A stretch of 51,484 nt of DNA from Rhodospirillaceae bacterium (GTDB lineage: Bacteria; Pseudomonadota; Alphaproteobacteria; UBA6615): assembly GCA_018667335.1 (NCBI GenBank), contig JABIVD010000031.1:1-51484 (forward strand), written 5' to 3'. Shown one piece after another: positions 35,663 through 39,973 of this stretch (its first letter is position 1; each line of letters begins with the position of its first letter). The notes beneath the pieces were generated by a model. That model was not told the origin of the DNA and ran no database searches. It was given only the letters and a program-made list of their open reading frames with translations. The translations under genes and the position numbers were made by a program.

Positions 35663-36220
35663 ATGACCATTCCCAATATCCTGACCCTGTCCCGCGTCGC
35701 GCTGATCCCCATCGTCGTCCTGATGCTGTTCGCGGACGACCCGGCGATGCGCTGGTGGACGTTCGCGCTGTTCGTGGCACTTTCCGTGACCGATTATTTC
35801 GACGGCTATCTGGCCCGCGCGCTCGACCAGGGCAGCGCGCTGGGGGCGCTGATGGACCCGATCGCCGACAAGGTGCTGGTCGCCGCGCTGATCGCAGGGC
35901 TTCTCGCGCGCGGAGACATCGCCGGCTGGGATGTGGCGGGCGCGATCCTGATTCTCAGCCGCGAGTTCCTGGTGTCGGGATTGCGCGAGTTCCTCGCCCA
36001 GCGCGACCTGCCCCTGCCGGTGACCAATCTCGCCAAGTGGAAGACCACGGCCCAGCTCGTGGCCCTGGCCTTGCTGATCCTCGCGCCGCTGGCCGAACCG
36101 GGCCAGCTGCTCGCGATCTCTGCAATCTGGTGGGTCGCGACGGCGCTGACCATGATCACCGGCTTCGACTATGTCCGCTCGGCCGCCCGGCAACTCAAAC
36201 CTGCCGGAGGAGAACAGTGA
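35663..36220 (+). CDS. pgsA: CDP-diacylglycerol-glycerol-3-phosphate 3-phosphatidyltransferase
   Basis: 185 residues, integral membrane. The CDP-alcohol phosphatidyltransferase motif is complete: D44..D47-G48..A51-R52-x8-G61-x3-D65-x3-D69. It makes phosphatidylglycerol phosphate, the committed step to PG and cardiolipin. It follows uvrC by 37 bp, an order common in proteobacteria (uvrC-pgsA), and its TGA overlaps the mobB ATG by one base. Confidence 0.93.
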   Translation: MTIPNILTLSRVALIPIVVLMLFADDPAMRWWTFALFVALSVTDYFDGYLARALDQGSALGALMDPIADKVLVAALIAGLLARGDIAGWDVAGAILILSREFLVSGLREFLAQRDLPLPVTNLAKWKTTAQLVALALLILAPLAEPGQLLAISAIWWVATALTMITGFDYVRSAARQLKPAGGEQ

Positions 36221-36765
36221 TGCGTATCGCAGGGATCGTCGGCTGGCATGACAGCGGCAAAACCACGCTCGTGGTCCAACTGGTCGCCGAACTGGCGGGC
36301 CGAGGCTATCGCGTCTCGACCGTCAAGCACGCCCATCACGTCTTCGATGTCGACACGCCCGGGAAGGACAGCTGGAAGCACCGGGAGTCCGGCGCCACCG
36401 AGGTCATGGTCGGCTCCTCCACCCGCTGGGCGCTGATGCACGAATTGCGCGGCGGCGACGAACCCTCGACCCGGGAGCTCGTTGCGAAGATGAGCCCGGT
36501 GGATCTGGTGCTGGTCGAGGGATTCAAGCATGAGGATCACGAGAAGATCGAGGTCTATCGGCAGGGCCTCAAGGATCCGCCGAACGCCCTGCGCGACCCG
36601 ACGATCATCGCCCTGGCGGACGATGGGACGACGACGGGCCTGCCCGACAGGGTCCAGCGCCTCGACGCCGGCGACCCCGTCGCCGTCGCCGACTTCATCG
36701 AGCGGCACTGGGGCCTGACCCGCCCCGGTGACGGCGCCTCAGAAGCCGCATCCGGATCCGCGTGA
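36220..36765 (+). CDS. mobB: Molybdopterin-guanine dinucleotide biosynthesis protein B
   Basis: 181 residues. P-loop GWHDSGKT (8-15) at the N-terminus, then VSTVKHAHHVFDVDTPGKDSWKHRESGA, and LVEGFKHEDHEKIEVYR, all typical of MobB, a GTP-binding adaptor that assists MobA in adding GMP to molybdopterin. GGAGGAG sits inside the end of pgsA just before the overlapping start. Translational coupling to pgsA is likely. Confidence 0.93.
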   Translation: MRIAGIVGWHDSGKTTLVVQLVAELAGRGYRVSTVKHAHHVFDVDTPGKDSWKHRESGATEVMVGSSTRWALMHELRGGDEPSTRELVAKMSPVDLVLVEGFKHEDHEKIEVYRQGLKDPPNALRDPTIIALADDGTTTGLPDRVQRLDAGDPVAVADFIERHWGLTRPGDGASEAASGSA

Positions 36766-36769
36766 ACCG

Positions 36770-38083
36770 ATGGCGCAGCTCTCCGATGATTGCTTCGAGG
36801 CCGACGGCGGCCTGATCCCCGTCGAGGAGGCCCTCGCGCGGCTGGAGGCGCGGCTCTCGACCATCGTCGGTGCCGAGAGCATCACGCTCGACAGCGCGGC
36901 CGGGCGCATCCTGGCGGCCGACATCACATCCGACAGGGCGGTGCCGCCCCACGACAATTCGGCGGTCGACGGCTACGCGGTCTATTTCGACGATCTGGAC
37001 GCCGACGGCGAGACGCGGCTGCCCGTCGCGGGCCGGGTCGCGGCCGGGCACCCGCTGAACGGGCCCGCACAGCGCGGCACCGCGGTGCGGATCTTCACCG
37101 GCGCCCCTATCCCCGACGGCGCGGCCGGGCCGGACGGTGTGGCCGGGCCGGACGGGGCGGCAGGGCCGGATACGGTTCTGATGCAGGAAGACTGCCGGGC
37201 CGAGGAACATAACGGGCAGACGCATGTCGTGATCCCGGCGGGAATCTCACGCGGTGCGAACCGACGCGACGAAGGCGAGGATGTCGCCCGGGGCCAGGTC
37301 ATATTGCGCGCGGGCCAGCGGCTGCGCCCCCAGGATATCGGGCTCGCCGCGTCGATCGGGCGTGCGGATTTTTCGGTGTATGAGAAACTCACGGTCGGCG
37401 TGCTGTCGACCGGCGACGAGGTGTACGAGCCGGGCGCCGCTGCGCCGGCCGGCGGCATCTACGACGCCAACCGCCACGCCCTCACCGCCCTCCTGTCGGA
37501 CCTCGGCTGCGCCGTGCGCGACTACGGGATCGTCGCCGACGATGCGGATCGCATCGGCGCGGCCCTGACCCGGGCCGCAGAGGAATGCGATGCGATCGTC
37601 TCGACGGCCGGCATGTCGGTGGGTGACGAGGACCATCTCGCGGACGCCATCGCGCGGCTGGGCACGCTGCATTTCTGGAAGGTGGCGATCAAACCCGGCC
37701 GCCCTGTCGCCTTCGGACAGATCGGCGACACACCCTTCATCGGCCTGCCGGGCAATCCTGCGGCGATGATGGTGACCTTCCTGCGGCTGGCACGCCCCGC
37801 ACTGCTGCGGCTCGGCGGGGCCACGGATGTGGCGCCGCGCCTCTACCAGGTCCGGGCCGGGTTCACCCATTCGAAGAAGGAGCGGCGGCGCGAATATGTC
37901 CGCGTCTGCCTGGCACCCGGCGACGACGGCGTGCTGGTGGCGAACAAGCACCCGCGCAGCGGCGCGGGGGTGCTCACCTCGATGGTCGAGTCCGAAGGCC
38001 TGGTTGAATTGCCGGAAGACATGACCCAACTCACGCCGGGAACGATGGTATCTTTTCTTCCCTTCACGGAAGTGGCGCGATGA
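36770..38083 (+). CDS. moeA: Molybdopterin molybdenumtransferase with an expanded loop
   Basis: 437 residues. MoeA inserts molybdate into adenylylated molybdopterin. Motifs: PPHDNSAVDGYAV, GVLSTGDEV, STAGMSVGDEDH, FWKVAIKPGRPVAFGQI, GLPGNPAAMMV. The normally continuous IPxGADTVxMQED segment is interrupted: three 18-bp tandem units (37115-37168) add about 15 residues rich in Gly/Pro/Ala/Asp before DTVLMQED. I prefer ATG 36770 (MAQLSDD); GTG 36728 is possible but overlaps mobB and has no better ribosome site. Confidence 0.92.
   Translation: MAQLSDDCFEADGGLIPVEEALARLEARLSTIVGAESITLDSAAGRILAADITSDRAVPPHDNSAVDGYAVYFDDLDADGETRLPVAGRVAAGHPLNGPAQRGTAVRIFTGAPIPDGAAGPDGVAGPDGAAGPDTVLMQEDCRAEEHNGQTHVVIPAGISRGANRRDEGEDVARGQVILRAGQRLRPQDIGLAASIGRADFSVYEKLTVGVLSTGDEVYEPGAAAPAGGIYDANRHALTALLSDLGCAVRDYGIVADDADRIGAALTRAAEECDAIVSTAGMSVGDEDHLADAIARLGTLHFWKVAIKPGRPVAFGQIGDTPFIGLPGNPAAMMVTFLRLARPALLRLGGATDVAPRLYQVRAGFTHSKKERRREYVRVCLAPGDDGVLVANKHPRSGAGVLTSMVESEGLVELPEDMTQLTPGTMVSFLPFTEVAR
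37115..37168 (+). repeat. Three tandem 18-bp units inside moeA
   Basis: Units at 37115-37132, 37133-37150 and 37151-37168 each encode DG(A/V)AGP. They keep the reading frame and lie in a strongly conserved loop of MoeA. Confidence 0.92.
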
Positions 38084-38331
38084 AAATTCTCTACTTTGCC
38101 TGGATGCGGCAGCGGATCGGCCTGTCGAGCGAGACGGTCGAACTGCCCGCAGACGTCGCGACGGTCGATGGCCTGATCGACTGGCTGATCGGCCGGGGCG
38201 AGGGTTATGGCGCCGCCTTCGAGAAGCGCGACGTGATTCGCGCCGCCGTGAACCAGGACTATGTCCCCTTCGACCACCCGGTCGCCGACGGAGACGAGAT
38301 CGCATTCTTTCCGCCGGTCACCGGCGGCTGA
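38080..38331 (+). CDS. moaD: Molybdopterin synthase small subunit
   Basis: 83 residues, ubiquitin-like beta-grasp. The C-terminus ends in Gly-Gly (FFPPVTGG), the site that is adenylylated and thiocarboxylated to deliver sulfur to precursor Z. The N-terminus MKILYFAWMRQRIG is typical. Its ATG overlaps the moeA TGA (ATGA), so it is translationally coupled. Confidence 0.95.
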   Translation: MKILYFAWMRQRIGLSSETVELPADVATVDGLIDWLIGRGEGYGAAFEKRDVIRAAVNQDYVPFDHPVADGDEIAFFPPVTGG

Positions 38332-38344
38332 GGGGCAGACTCCG

Positions 38345-38824
38345 ATGATCCGCGTGCAGGAAGATGACTTCGACATCGGGGTGGAGATCGCCGCCCTGAC
38401 CGCCGAGAAGACGACGATCGGCGGCGTGGCGACCTTCACCGGCCTGGTCCGGGACATGGCGCCGGTCGACGGCGCGGACCAGCCCGTCAGCGCGATGACA
38501 CTCGAACATTATCCGGGCATGACGGAAAAGAAGCTCGGCGAGATCGAGGCCGAGGCCAACCGCCGCTGGCCGTTGGATGCGAGCCTGATCATCCACCGCT
38601 ACGGACGGCTGGAGCCAGGCGATCAAATCGTGCTGGTGGCCTGCGCATCGGCCCACCGCCAGGCCGCGTTCGACGCCTGTCAGTTCCTGATGGACTGGCT
38701 GAAGACGGACGCGCCGTTCTGGAAACTGGAAGACACCGACGCCGGCGGAGTGTGGGTCGAGACCCGCGCCACCGACGATGCAGCGGCGGCGCGCTGGAAA
38801 CGAGAATCCGAGCCCGGCGAATGA
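38345..38824 (+). CDS. moaE: Molybdopterin synthase catalytic subunit
   Basis: 159 residues. Conserved segments are GGVATFTGLVRDM, MTLEHYPGMTEKKL, IIHRYGRLEPGDQIVLVACASAHRQAAFDACQFLMDWLKTDAPFWK, the last containing the Lys that contacts the MoaD tail. It forms a heterotetramer with MoaD. I start at 38345, 13 bp after moaD. Its stop TGA overlaps the ATG of the following selenoprotein gene. Confidence 0.95.
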   Translation: MIRVQEDDFDIGVEIAALTAEKTTIGGVATFTGLVRDMAPVDGADQPVSAMTLEHYPGMTEKKLGEIEAEANRRWPLDASLIIHRYGRLEPGDQIVLVACASAHRQAAFDACQFLMDWLKTDAPFWKLEDTDAGGVWVETRATDDAAAARWKRESEPGE

Positions 38825-39033
38825 ACAGGGTTCCGGCCTCAACCATCACCTGCCCGCATTGCGGGCACCGGCAGACGGAAATCATGCCGACGGACAACTG
38901 ACAGGTTTTCTATGCGTGTCGCTCGTGCAGCGACATCCTGAAAGCCAAGCCTGGCGATTGCTGCGTGTTCTGCTCCTACGGCGACGTGCATTGCCCGTCC
39001 GTTCAGGAGCGCACCGCGACCGGCCGCGAATAA
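38821..39033 (+). CDS. GDCCVxC-family small selenoprotein (in-frame UGA = Sec at codon 27)
   Basis: 71 codons, 70 residues if TGA at 38899-38901 is read as selenocysteine. Reading: STITCPHCGHRQTEIMPTDN, then U27, then QVFYACRSCSDILKAKPGDC, then CVFCSYGDVHCPS. Both halves match one family of small Cys-rich proteins described as GDCCVxC domain (seleno)proteins, in which Cys-containing homologues have C at the TGA position (TDACQ..FY.C). Four CxxC-type pairs suggest a zinc ribbon plus a redox centre. The ATG overlaps the moaE TGA (ATGA). A hairpin with SECIS properties starts 15 nt after the TGA. The alternative is a nonsense-mutated gene, but the intact downstream frame, invariant motifs and hairpin argue against it. 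Biological role unknown. Confidence 0.85.
38902..38940 (+). promoter_or_regulatory. Candidate bacterial SECIS element
   Basis: Immediately after the TGA: upper stem TGTCGCT (38917-38923) / AGCGACA (38929-38935), 7 perfect pairs, loop CGTGC with G in its first two bases; lower stem CAGG (38902-38905) / CCTG (38937-38940). The loop begins 22 nt after the UGA, inside the 16-37 nt window known for bacterial SECIS. It would bind SelB to direct Sec insertion. Confidence 0.75.
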
Positions 39034-39040
39034 GCCAGAG

Positions 39041-39084
39041 CTATTCTGCTTCTATTCTGCTGCTATTCTGCCGCTATTCTGCGA
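39041..39084. repeat. Four tandem 11-bp repeats over the ilvE stop codon
   Basis: CTATTCTGC plus two variable bases, repeated at 39041, 39052, 39063 and 39074 without gaps. On the minus strand each copy carries TAG; because 11 is not a multiple of 3 the four copies place TAG in all three frames. The ilvE stop is the TAG of the last copy. Confidence 0.92.
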
Positions 39085-39973
39085 CGGCGGCTTCTGCACG
39101 ACCATTCACCTGGTCGTCATAATCCTGCATCAGGGTCTTCGTGATCTCGCCCACCGTGAAGGTGTGATCATCCGCGATCTTCGCGATCGGGGTGACCTCG
39201 GCCGCCGTGCCGGTGACGAACATCTCGGTCGCCGTGCTGAGCTCCTCGGGCATGATCGCCCGCTCGATGACCTCGTAACCGCGCTTCTTGGCCAGCGCGA
39301 TCACCGATCGACGGGTAATGCCGTCGAGGAAACAGTCGGGCGTGGGCGTGTGAATCTTGCCGTCGATGACCAGGAACATGTTGGCGCCGGTCGTCTCGGC
39401 GAGCTGTCCGCGCCAATCCAGCATCAGGGCATCGGAATAGCCCTTCGCCTCGGCCGCGTGCTTCGACAGGGTGCAGATCATGTAGAGACCCGCCGCCTTG
39501 GCGCTCACCGGTGCGGTCTTCGGATCCGGCCGGCGATAGATCGCCCAGTCGAGATCGATGCCCTTCATCCGGGCTTCCGGCGTGAAATAGGACGGCCAAT
39601 CCCAGACCGCGATCGCCACCTGGATTTCGCACTTCTGCGCCGACACGCCCATCTGCTCCGGGCCGCGCCATGCGATCGGGCGGAGATAGGCATCGGTCAG
39701 GCCGGCGCGGCTGAGCGCCTCGCGGCATGCGTCGTCGAGTTCCGCGACGGTGTAGGGCACCTCGAAGCCGAGAATCTTGCCCGAATTGTGCAGGCGTTCA
39801 TTGTGGGCCGTGAGTTCGAAAATCTCGCCATTGTAGGCGCGCATGCCCTCGAATACCGCTGACGCGTAATGCAGCGCATGGTTCAGGACATGCAGCTTGG
39901 CGTCGGCCCAGGGAACGAAGTCGCCGTTGAACCAGATCACCCCGTCGCGATCATCATAGGGAGTTTCGTGCAT
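39074..39973 (-). CDS. ilvE: Branched-chain amino acid aminotransferase
   Basis: 299 residues, PLP fold type IV. Typical strings: WFNGDFVPWADAKLHVLNHALHYASAVFEGMRAY, YLRPIAWRGPEQMGV, CTLSKHAAEAKGYSDALMLD (holding the Schiff-base Lys), AETTGANMFLV and TRRSVIALAKKRGYEV. Transfers amino groups between branched-chain 2-oxoacids and glutamate. Divergent from the marR gene, and a GTTACCT/AGGTAAC dyad lies between them. Its 3' end consists of an 11-bp repeat array. Confidence 0.94.
   Translation of the reverse strand: MHETPYDDRDGVIWFNGDFVPWADAKLHVLNHALHYASAVFEGMRAYNGEIFELTAHNERLHNSGKILGFEVPYTVAELDDACREALSRAGLTDAYLRPIAWRGPEQMGVSAQKCEIQVAIAVWDWPSYFTPEARMKGIDLDWAIYRRPDPKTAPVSAKAAGLYMICTLSKHAAEAKGYSDALMLDWRGQLAETTGANMFLVIDGKIHTPTPDCFLDGITRRSVIALAKKRGYEVIERAIMPEELSTATEMFVTGTAAEVTPIAKIADDHTFTVGEITKTLMQDYDDQVNGRAEAAVAE

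Follow-up and report, generated by a model that had tools for sequence, protein, structure and literature searches.

Genes and features of the locus

The window analyzed here, a stretch of 51,484 nucleotides, carries a group of molybdenum-cofactor genes on the plus strand. These are mobB (36208..36765, start codon assumed), encoding molybdopterin guanine dinucleotide synthesis protein B (PF03205, 168.9 bits), moeA (36728..38083), with matches over cut-off to PF03453, PF00994 and PF03454, a moaD-like ThiS-family gene (38080..38331; PF02597, 74.6 bits) that overlaps the end of moeA, and moaE (38345..38824; PF02391, 126.4 bits), encoding the large subunit of molybdopterin synthase. Directly downstream of moaE and on the same strand lies a small gene (38821..39033) of 70 codons and a TAA terminator, which is open throughout except for a single TGA at codon 27 (38899..38901), as the preliminary description of this DNA had stated. 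With this TGA read as selenocysteine (Sec), the translated product of 70 residues is MNRVPASTITCPHCGHRQTEIMPTDN-U-QVFYACRSCSDILKAKPGDCCVFCSYGDVHCPSVQERTATGRE*. A standard gene caller would be expected to cut the gene short or divide it at codon 27. The start codon of the selenogene and the stop codon of moaE share the sequence ATGA (38821..38824), an offset that is common to all six loci found to carry the Sec form, and translation of the selenogene would probably be coupled to that of moaE through this overlap. On the opposite strand, a convergent gene (39074..39973) encodes a class IV aminotransferase (PF01063, 173 bits), ilvE-like by our naming. An 11-bp tandem repeat of 3.9 copies (39040-39082) occupies the space between the selenogene stop and this gene, and extends a few bases into the end of the latter.

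The product, with Cys substituted for Sec, matched the NCBIfam profile NF041374 with 103.8 bits (cut-off 40), covering positions 1 to 57 of the 58 in the profile, while a Pfam scan of the product found no family above cut-off. The GDCCVFC motif is located at residues 45-51. Seventeen columns are invariant between the product and 65 other sequences when Sec is counted as Cys, including C11, C14, position 27, C33, C36, C47, C48, C51 and C58. The "four CxxC-like pairs" noticed earlier therefore reduce to two CxxC pairs (C11/C14 and C33/C36), the remainder being a CCxxC cluster, C58 and Sec27.

Predicted decoding of the in-frame TGA

The genome (3.55 Mb, 62 contigs, 96% complete) was searched for selA, selB, selC and selD, as the preliminary description had proposed, and all four were found on contig C5 within 13 kb (153.5-166.3 kb). 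selA (584 bits) and selB (466 bits) lie side by side at C5:153553-156803, tRNA-Sec is encoded at C5:163995-164086 (71.2 bits; called by ARAGORN as tRNA-SeC with anticodon tca) and a selD domain (292 bits) at C5:165381-166292. The SelD domain is fused behind a pyridine nucleotide-disulfide oxidoreductase domain (L141 13685-15916, on C5), with tRNA-Sec just upstream; the domain itself passes TIGR00476, and the fusion reaches 479 bits against TIGR04369, the profile for oxidoreductase/SelD-related fusions, which is below the cut-off of 700. A search of the same genome for formate dehydrogenase alpha (Fdh-alpha) genes gave one match over cut-off, which had no TGA and hence does not show a second selenoprotein.

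Among 95 genomes, consisting of the present one and its relatives, 23 carried the family over cut-off, leaving aside two further genomes with fragments below cut-off only. Residue 27 is encoded by TGA in six of these 23 genomes (the present one, G005, G006, G012, G014 and G018), which belong to three genera, and is Cys in the other 17. All 80 wider homologues taken from named genomes also have Cys at position 27; these were the best-scoring of 591 confirmed stretches rather than a random sample, and as one of the two discovery patterns requires Cys at 27, the set would miss Sec forms. Every homologue over cut-off that was read and that covers the site therefore has either Cys or TGA there, in agreement with the earlier statement that GDCCVxC proteins exist in Cys and Sec forms. 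With 60 bits set as the threshold for a true tRNA-Sec (our choice, placed in a gap between listed scores of 64.5 and 53.7), 28 of the 95 genomes have one. It was found in 6/6 genomes with TGA at 27 (each with at least 70 bits) versus 5/17 with Cys (Fisher p 0.0046) and, after addition of a class-wide panel (385 genomes, 60 with the family, overlapping the set of 95), in 6/6 versus 13/62 (p 0.00025); since the six Sec forms descend from one event, these tests are not independent and the p-values overstate independence. In a tree of 66 rows the six Sec forms make up one clade (support 97/99) among Cys forms, with many forks of the tree, which rests on 57 columns, being unresolved. An in-frame UGA aligned with a Cys of homologues and a genome with selA, selB, selC and selD are among the features by which bacterial selenoproteins are recognized, and both are found here.

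The reading frame continues to be constrained after the TGA. In the six Sec-form genes (15 pairs summed), pN/pS was 0.278 before the TGA (codons 2-26) and 0.211 after it (codons 28-63), compared with 1.99 and 2.03 in the two other frames, and the differences after the TGA were distributed as 68, 48 and 189 over codon positions 1, 2 and 3. The low pN/pS and the codon-position pattern indicate that the downstream part is under protein-level selection in this frame. These data bear on the possibility that the gene is in decay and its TGA no more than a nonsense mutation or sequencing error. Decay does have precedents in this family, namely a copy with TGA at residue 48 in genome G144 and a truncated Cys-type copy on contig C62 of the present genome, but a TGA that stands at the same codon in six genomes of three genera, all six with tRNA-Sec, and is followed by sequence with a pN/pS of 0.21 makes decay here very improbable. 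A pseudogene was rejected on the basis of the selection after the TGA.

In G144, a genome from a different family of the class, one Cys copy has no stop and a further copy (L140 1833-2003, on G144:C160) has TGA in place of the second Cys of GDCC. No tRNA-Sec above the serine-tRNA background was found in G144 (best score 49.8 bits) and the local fold behind this TGA is weak, and for these reasons the copy was rejected as a second kind of Sec form; it reads as ordinary decay, in contrast to the six Sec forms. The truncated copy on C62 (L046, G000:C62:73561-73659) has no GDCCVxC segment and lies close to a gene whose product contains the molybdopterin oxidoreductase domain PF00174 (L046, L143). 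The version in G003 (L029) retains the GDCCVxC segment and adjoins a 94% identical relative of the PF00174 gene.

A SECIS-like hairpin (38916..38936, plus strand) follows the TGA, with arms at 38916-38923 and 38929-38936 that form a stem of 8 bp (seven Watson-Crick pairs and an outer G.U pair) around the loop CGUGC (38924-38928). It had been described beforehand as a 7-bp stem beginning 15 nt after the TGA, with the loop 22 nt after, and both distances were borne out; its value as evidence had been overrated, however, as it is uninterrupted in only three of the six Sec-form genes (the present one, G005 and G006). G012, G014 and G018 keep 7, 6 and 5 of the 8 pairs, respectively, so that by alignment count 42 of 48 pair cells (87.5%) form across the six genes. 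This pairing is no better than that obtained with shuffled 3' letters (422 of 500 shuffles were as high), and no pair has changed on both sides among the six Sec forms, hence there is no compensatory change. The fold energy of the hairpin departs only modestly from that of shuffled sequence (z -2.0, matched by 8 of 200 shuffles), with z-scores of -1.9, -1.5, +0.5, -0.65 and -0.2 in the other five Sec forms. Chance does not account for the evidence at the protein level, namely the NF041374 match and the TGA at the same residue in five other genomes. A stem of at least 8 pairs near the equivalent place was found in 5 of 81 matched stretches of Cys forms, and an Rfam scan of the window gave no match at gathering scores.

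The 5' arm of the hairpin is invariant across the six Sec forms except for its outermost base. Codons 33-36 (TGT CGC TCG TGC), which span this arm and the loop, are identical in all six genes. At sites with an invariant amino acid, identical codons account for 4/4 in codons 33-36 versus 7/30 elsewhere (p 0.007), and for 6/7 in codons 28-38 versus 5/27 elsewhere (p 0.002), both ranges having been picked after the hairpin was seen. Judged from these sequences, the codon identity at 33-36 is compatible with a constraint at the RNA level.

The evidence from the hairpin alone is insufficient against a reading in which the UGA serves as a functional stop, giving a peptide of 26 residues, or is translated, independently of SelB, by a near-cognate tRNA as a residue other than Sec, given that half of the Sec forms have an interrupted structure and that no covariation is seen. 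What speaks against this reading is the Cys at position 27 of the homologues, which is expected for Sec and not for Trp or another residue, and protein-level selection that continues for 36 codons beyond the TGA; we consider it as improbable as decay. The gene, the machinery and the conservation together make it highly probable that UGA 27 is decoded as selenocysteine. Decoding would be carried out by SelB and tRNA-Sec, aided by the downstream hairpin. The earlier proposal of a true selenoprotein that standard gene calling would split or miss has thus held up, with the sel genes present, Cys or TGA at position 27 and selection after the TGA, and we estimate a probability of roughly 0.85 that the gene is a genuine selenoprotein of the GDCCVxC (GOS_B, NF041374) family.

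Neighborhoods of the Sec and Cys forms

The gene order moeA, moaD, moaE, selenogene, convergent aminotransferase gene and MarR-type regulator was found in all six Sec-form genomes. moaE itself was matched in 24 of 25 genomes searched, and 22 moaE loci were compared, three fragments (L166-L168, from G008 and G023) having been omitted. The selenogene lies between moaE and the aminotransferase gene at six of these 22 loci, while at 14 others, including those of the same-genus genomes G001, G003 and G004, the aminotransferase gene follows directly behind moaE without a selenogene. At L163 the aminotransferase gene is about 1 kb from moaE, and at the L161 moaE locus it was not found. The most economical history is a single arrival of the gene at the moaE site and subsequent losses, although the gene may also have arrived as a Cys form and changed to Sec later. 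In our main reading, one ancestral Sec-form gene came to lie in the molybdenum-cofactor gene cluster of this lineage. Its position in this cluster suggests that the Sec form is probably made together with molybdopterin synthase; it may serve the cofactor or may simply share in the expression of the cluster.

This arrangement invites the explanation that the protein, rather than carrying metal ions, assists molybdenum-cofactor (Moco) assembly or a molybdoenzyme as a thiol/selenol redox helper. It might, for instance, pass sulfur or persulfide to molybdopterin synthase or reduce a molybdoenzyme. In favor of this explanation are the ATGA overlap with the moaE stop in 6/6 Sec forms, behind moeA and moaD, and the finding that a relative of a PF00174-domain protein (MsrP-like by our naming) adjoins the gene in four of 100 non-Sec loci, two of the four being probably the same place in two genomes and two being confirmed by Pfam. 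Against it, the selenogene is absent at most of the moaE sites compared, which means that Moco synthesis does not need it; no relative of moaD, moaE or moeA was found in the 100 loci (tblastn, 1e-10; many of the loci are short); and the six Sec loci represent one inherited event. A role of this kind is therefore rather unlikely, ranking next after the soft-metal function considered below, and a Moco function deduced from linkage alone was rejected, because most of the relatives compared lack the gene at this site. In two different genomes, a gene of molybdopterin-oxidoreductase type (L039 509-1474, PF00174; L099 4049-4960, its 68% identical relative; both MsrP-like by our naming) stands upstream of a Cys-form GDCCVxC gene and ends within about 40 bp of it, which may be a second connection between the family and molybdoenzymes.

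The neighborhoods of the Cys forms are of another type. A cluster of MerT/MerF-like proteins, which are small membrane proteins whose first hydrophobic segment contains a vicinal Cys pair, was represented at 43 of 80 Cys loci. At 42 of the 80 loci the MerT/MerF-like gene is found no more than 1.2 kb upstream and in the same orientation, and at 30 of these it is within about 30 bp or overlaps (distances use the estimated start codon). A MerR-type regulator was found at 34 loci, a MerT-like gene or MerR at 46, and any of MerT-like, MerR, MerA-like, ACR3, CDF or P1B-ATPase genes at 57, with none of them at the remaining 23; the 80 loci include near-copies (a single MerT-like protein is common to L056, L058 and L060, and one to L098 and L102) and so represent fewer events than loci. 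The MerT/MerF-like and MerR profiles had no match in 53 control loci (194 kb), which were taken from the present genome and its relatives and are not matched to the 80. A MerT search of the present genome gave no match either, and its controls were silent too.

The name MerT-like has to be used with caution, as comparison with reference profiles shows. Among seven members scanned against Pfam, four exceed the MerT cut-off, a fifth stays below it and the other two are unmatched at 1e-5. Among seven scanned against NCBIfam, two of which had also been scanned against Pfam, one passes as MerF, three are of MerT type below cut-off and three have no match. The score of L092 is 129 bits, with a MerT cut-off of 150. 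A family match was also found on 347 plasmids; of the four that were inspected, one carries the gene behind a cation diffusion facilitator gene, one within a mer region, one within an ars cluster and one behind a gene for an FAD-dependent oxidoreductase.

Possible function and relation to known systems

An AlphaFold2 model of the product has middling confidence (mean pLDDT 74.9, pTM 0.57) and consists of four short strands and two short helices. Structure and sequence searches gave weak ribbon-like matches, none of them significant (best Z 2.8). The conservation and this model suggest that C11/C14 and C33/C36 probably form an N-terminal zinc ribbon, and that Sec27, C47, C48, C51 and C58 may constitute a second thiol/selenol site.

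Given that MerT/MerF-like membrane transporters are often encoded immediately ahead of Cys-form relatives, the likeliest function, which we would put at somewhat under an even chance, is that the protein binds a soft metal ion of the mercury class in the cytosol and passes it on. Selenolates are tighter ligands for Hg(II) than thiolates, and a Sec instead of Cys at position 27 would make the exchange of such an ion tighter or faster. The preliminary description had called the function undescribed, and no described function was found; its suggestion of metal-bound redox chemistry is plausible, but the Cys-form neighborhoods favor soft-metal (mercury-type) handling over general redox chemistry. 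A more speculative scenario, which we regard as improbable and slightly more so than the Moco helper, is that a soft-metal carrier of mercury resistance changed from Cys to Sec and was captured by the Moco cluster, where its selenol would guard molybdopterin synthase against soft metals or join in sulfur or metal transfer as the cofactor is assembled.

The gene provides a well-supported, genome-anchored Sec form for a family that has been listed as a hypothetical protein. The neighborhood data give GOS_B a functional lead, with Cys forms near MerT/MerF-like transporters and the Sec form inside a molybdenum-cofactor cluster, and with this lead the function of GOS_B becomes testable in laboratory strains. 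In a full-text search of the open-licence literature, judged by its listings, no paper was found on a linkage of the family to mercury genes or moaE. The placement of the Sec forms as one clade at the moaE/aminotransferase site and the occurrence of Cys forms near MerT/MerF-like genes were not found in print in this search.

Among known systems, the Cys relatives behind merT/merF-like genes resemble the accessory proteins of mer operons, and on one Aeromonas plasmid a Cys relative is located between merP and a Tn3-family transposase gene. In PMC5067307, a gene called orfY is counted among the accessory genes of mer operons and described as not essential. The Sec form itself differs in having no mer neighbor and adjoining molybdenum-cofactor genes instead. 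The spacing of C11/C14 and C33/C36 is like that of zinc ribbons, such as the PaaD zinc ribbon and the ribbons of RNA polymerase subunits, with a weak resemblance in sequence and fold, all matches being below cut-off or not significant.

The family is already catalogued and is not new, a point that the preliminary description omitted while being right about selenoprotein identity. The product is a full-length match to NF041374, "GDCCVxC domain-containing (seleno)protein", a name that itself admits Sec, and no feature excludes membership. The members seen are mostly Cys forms, TGA at residue 27 occurring in 3 of the 60 genomes of the class panel with the family over cut-off. In the portion available of a 2026 review (PMC13188914), NF041374 is entered for "hypothetical protein GOS_B" with one Sec and without a Sec motif; this absence of a motif would fit Sec27. 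GOS_B was reported from Global Ocean Sampling reads by Zhang and Gladyshev in 2008 (PMC2398784), with 11 Sec and 125 Cys sequences and, in the sections available, without functional evidence. As described there, the GOS_B sequences are marine metagenome reads, whereas the gene presented here lies in an assembled genome together with its neighbors.
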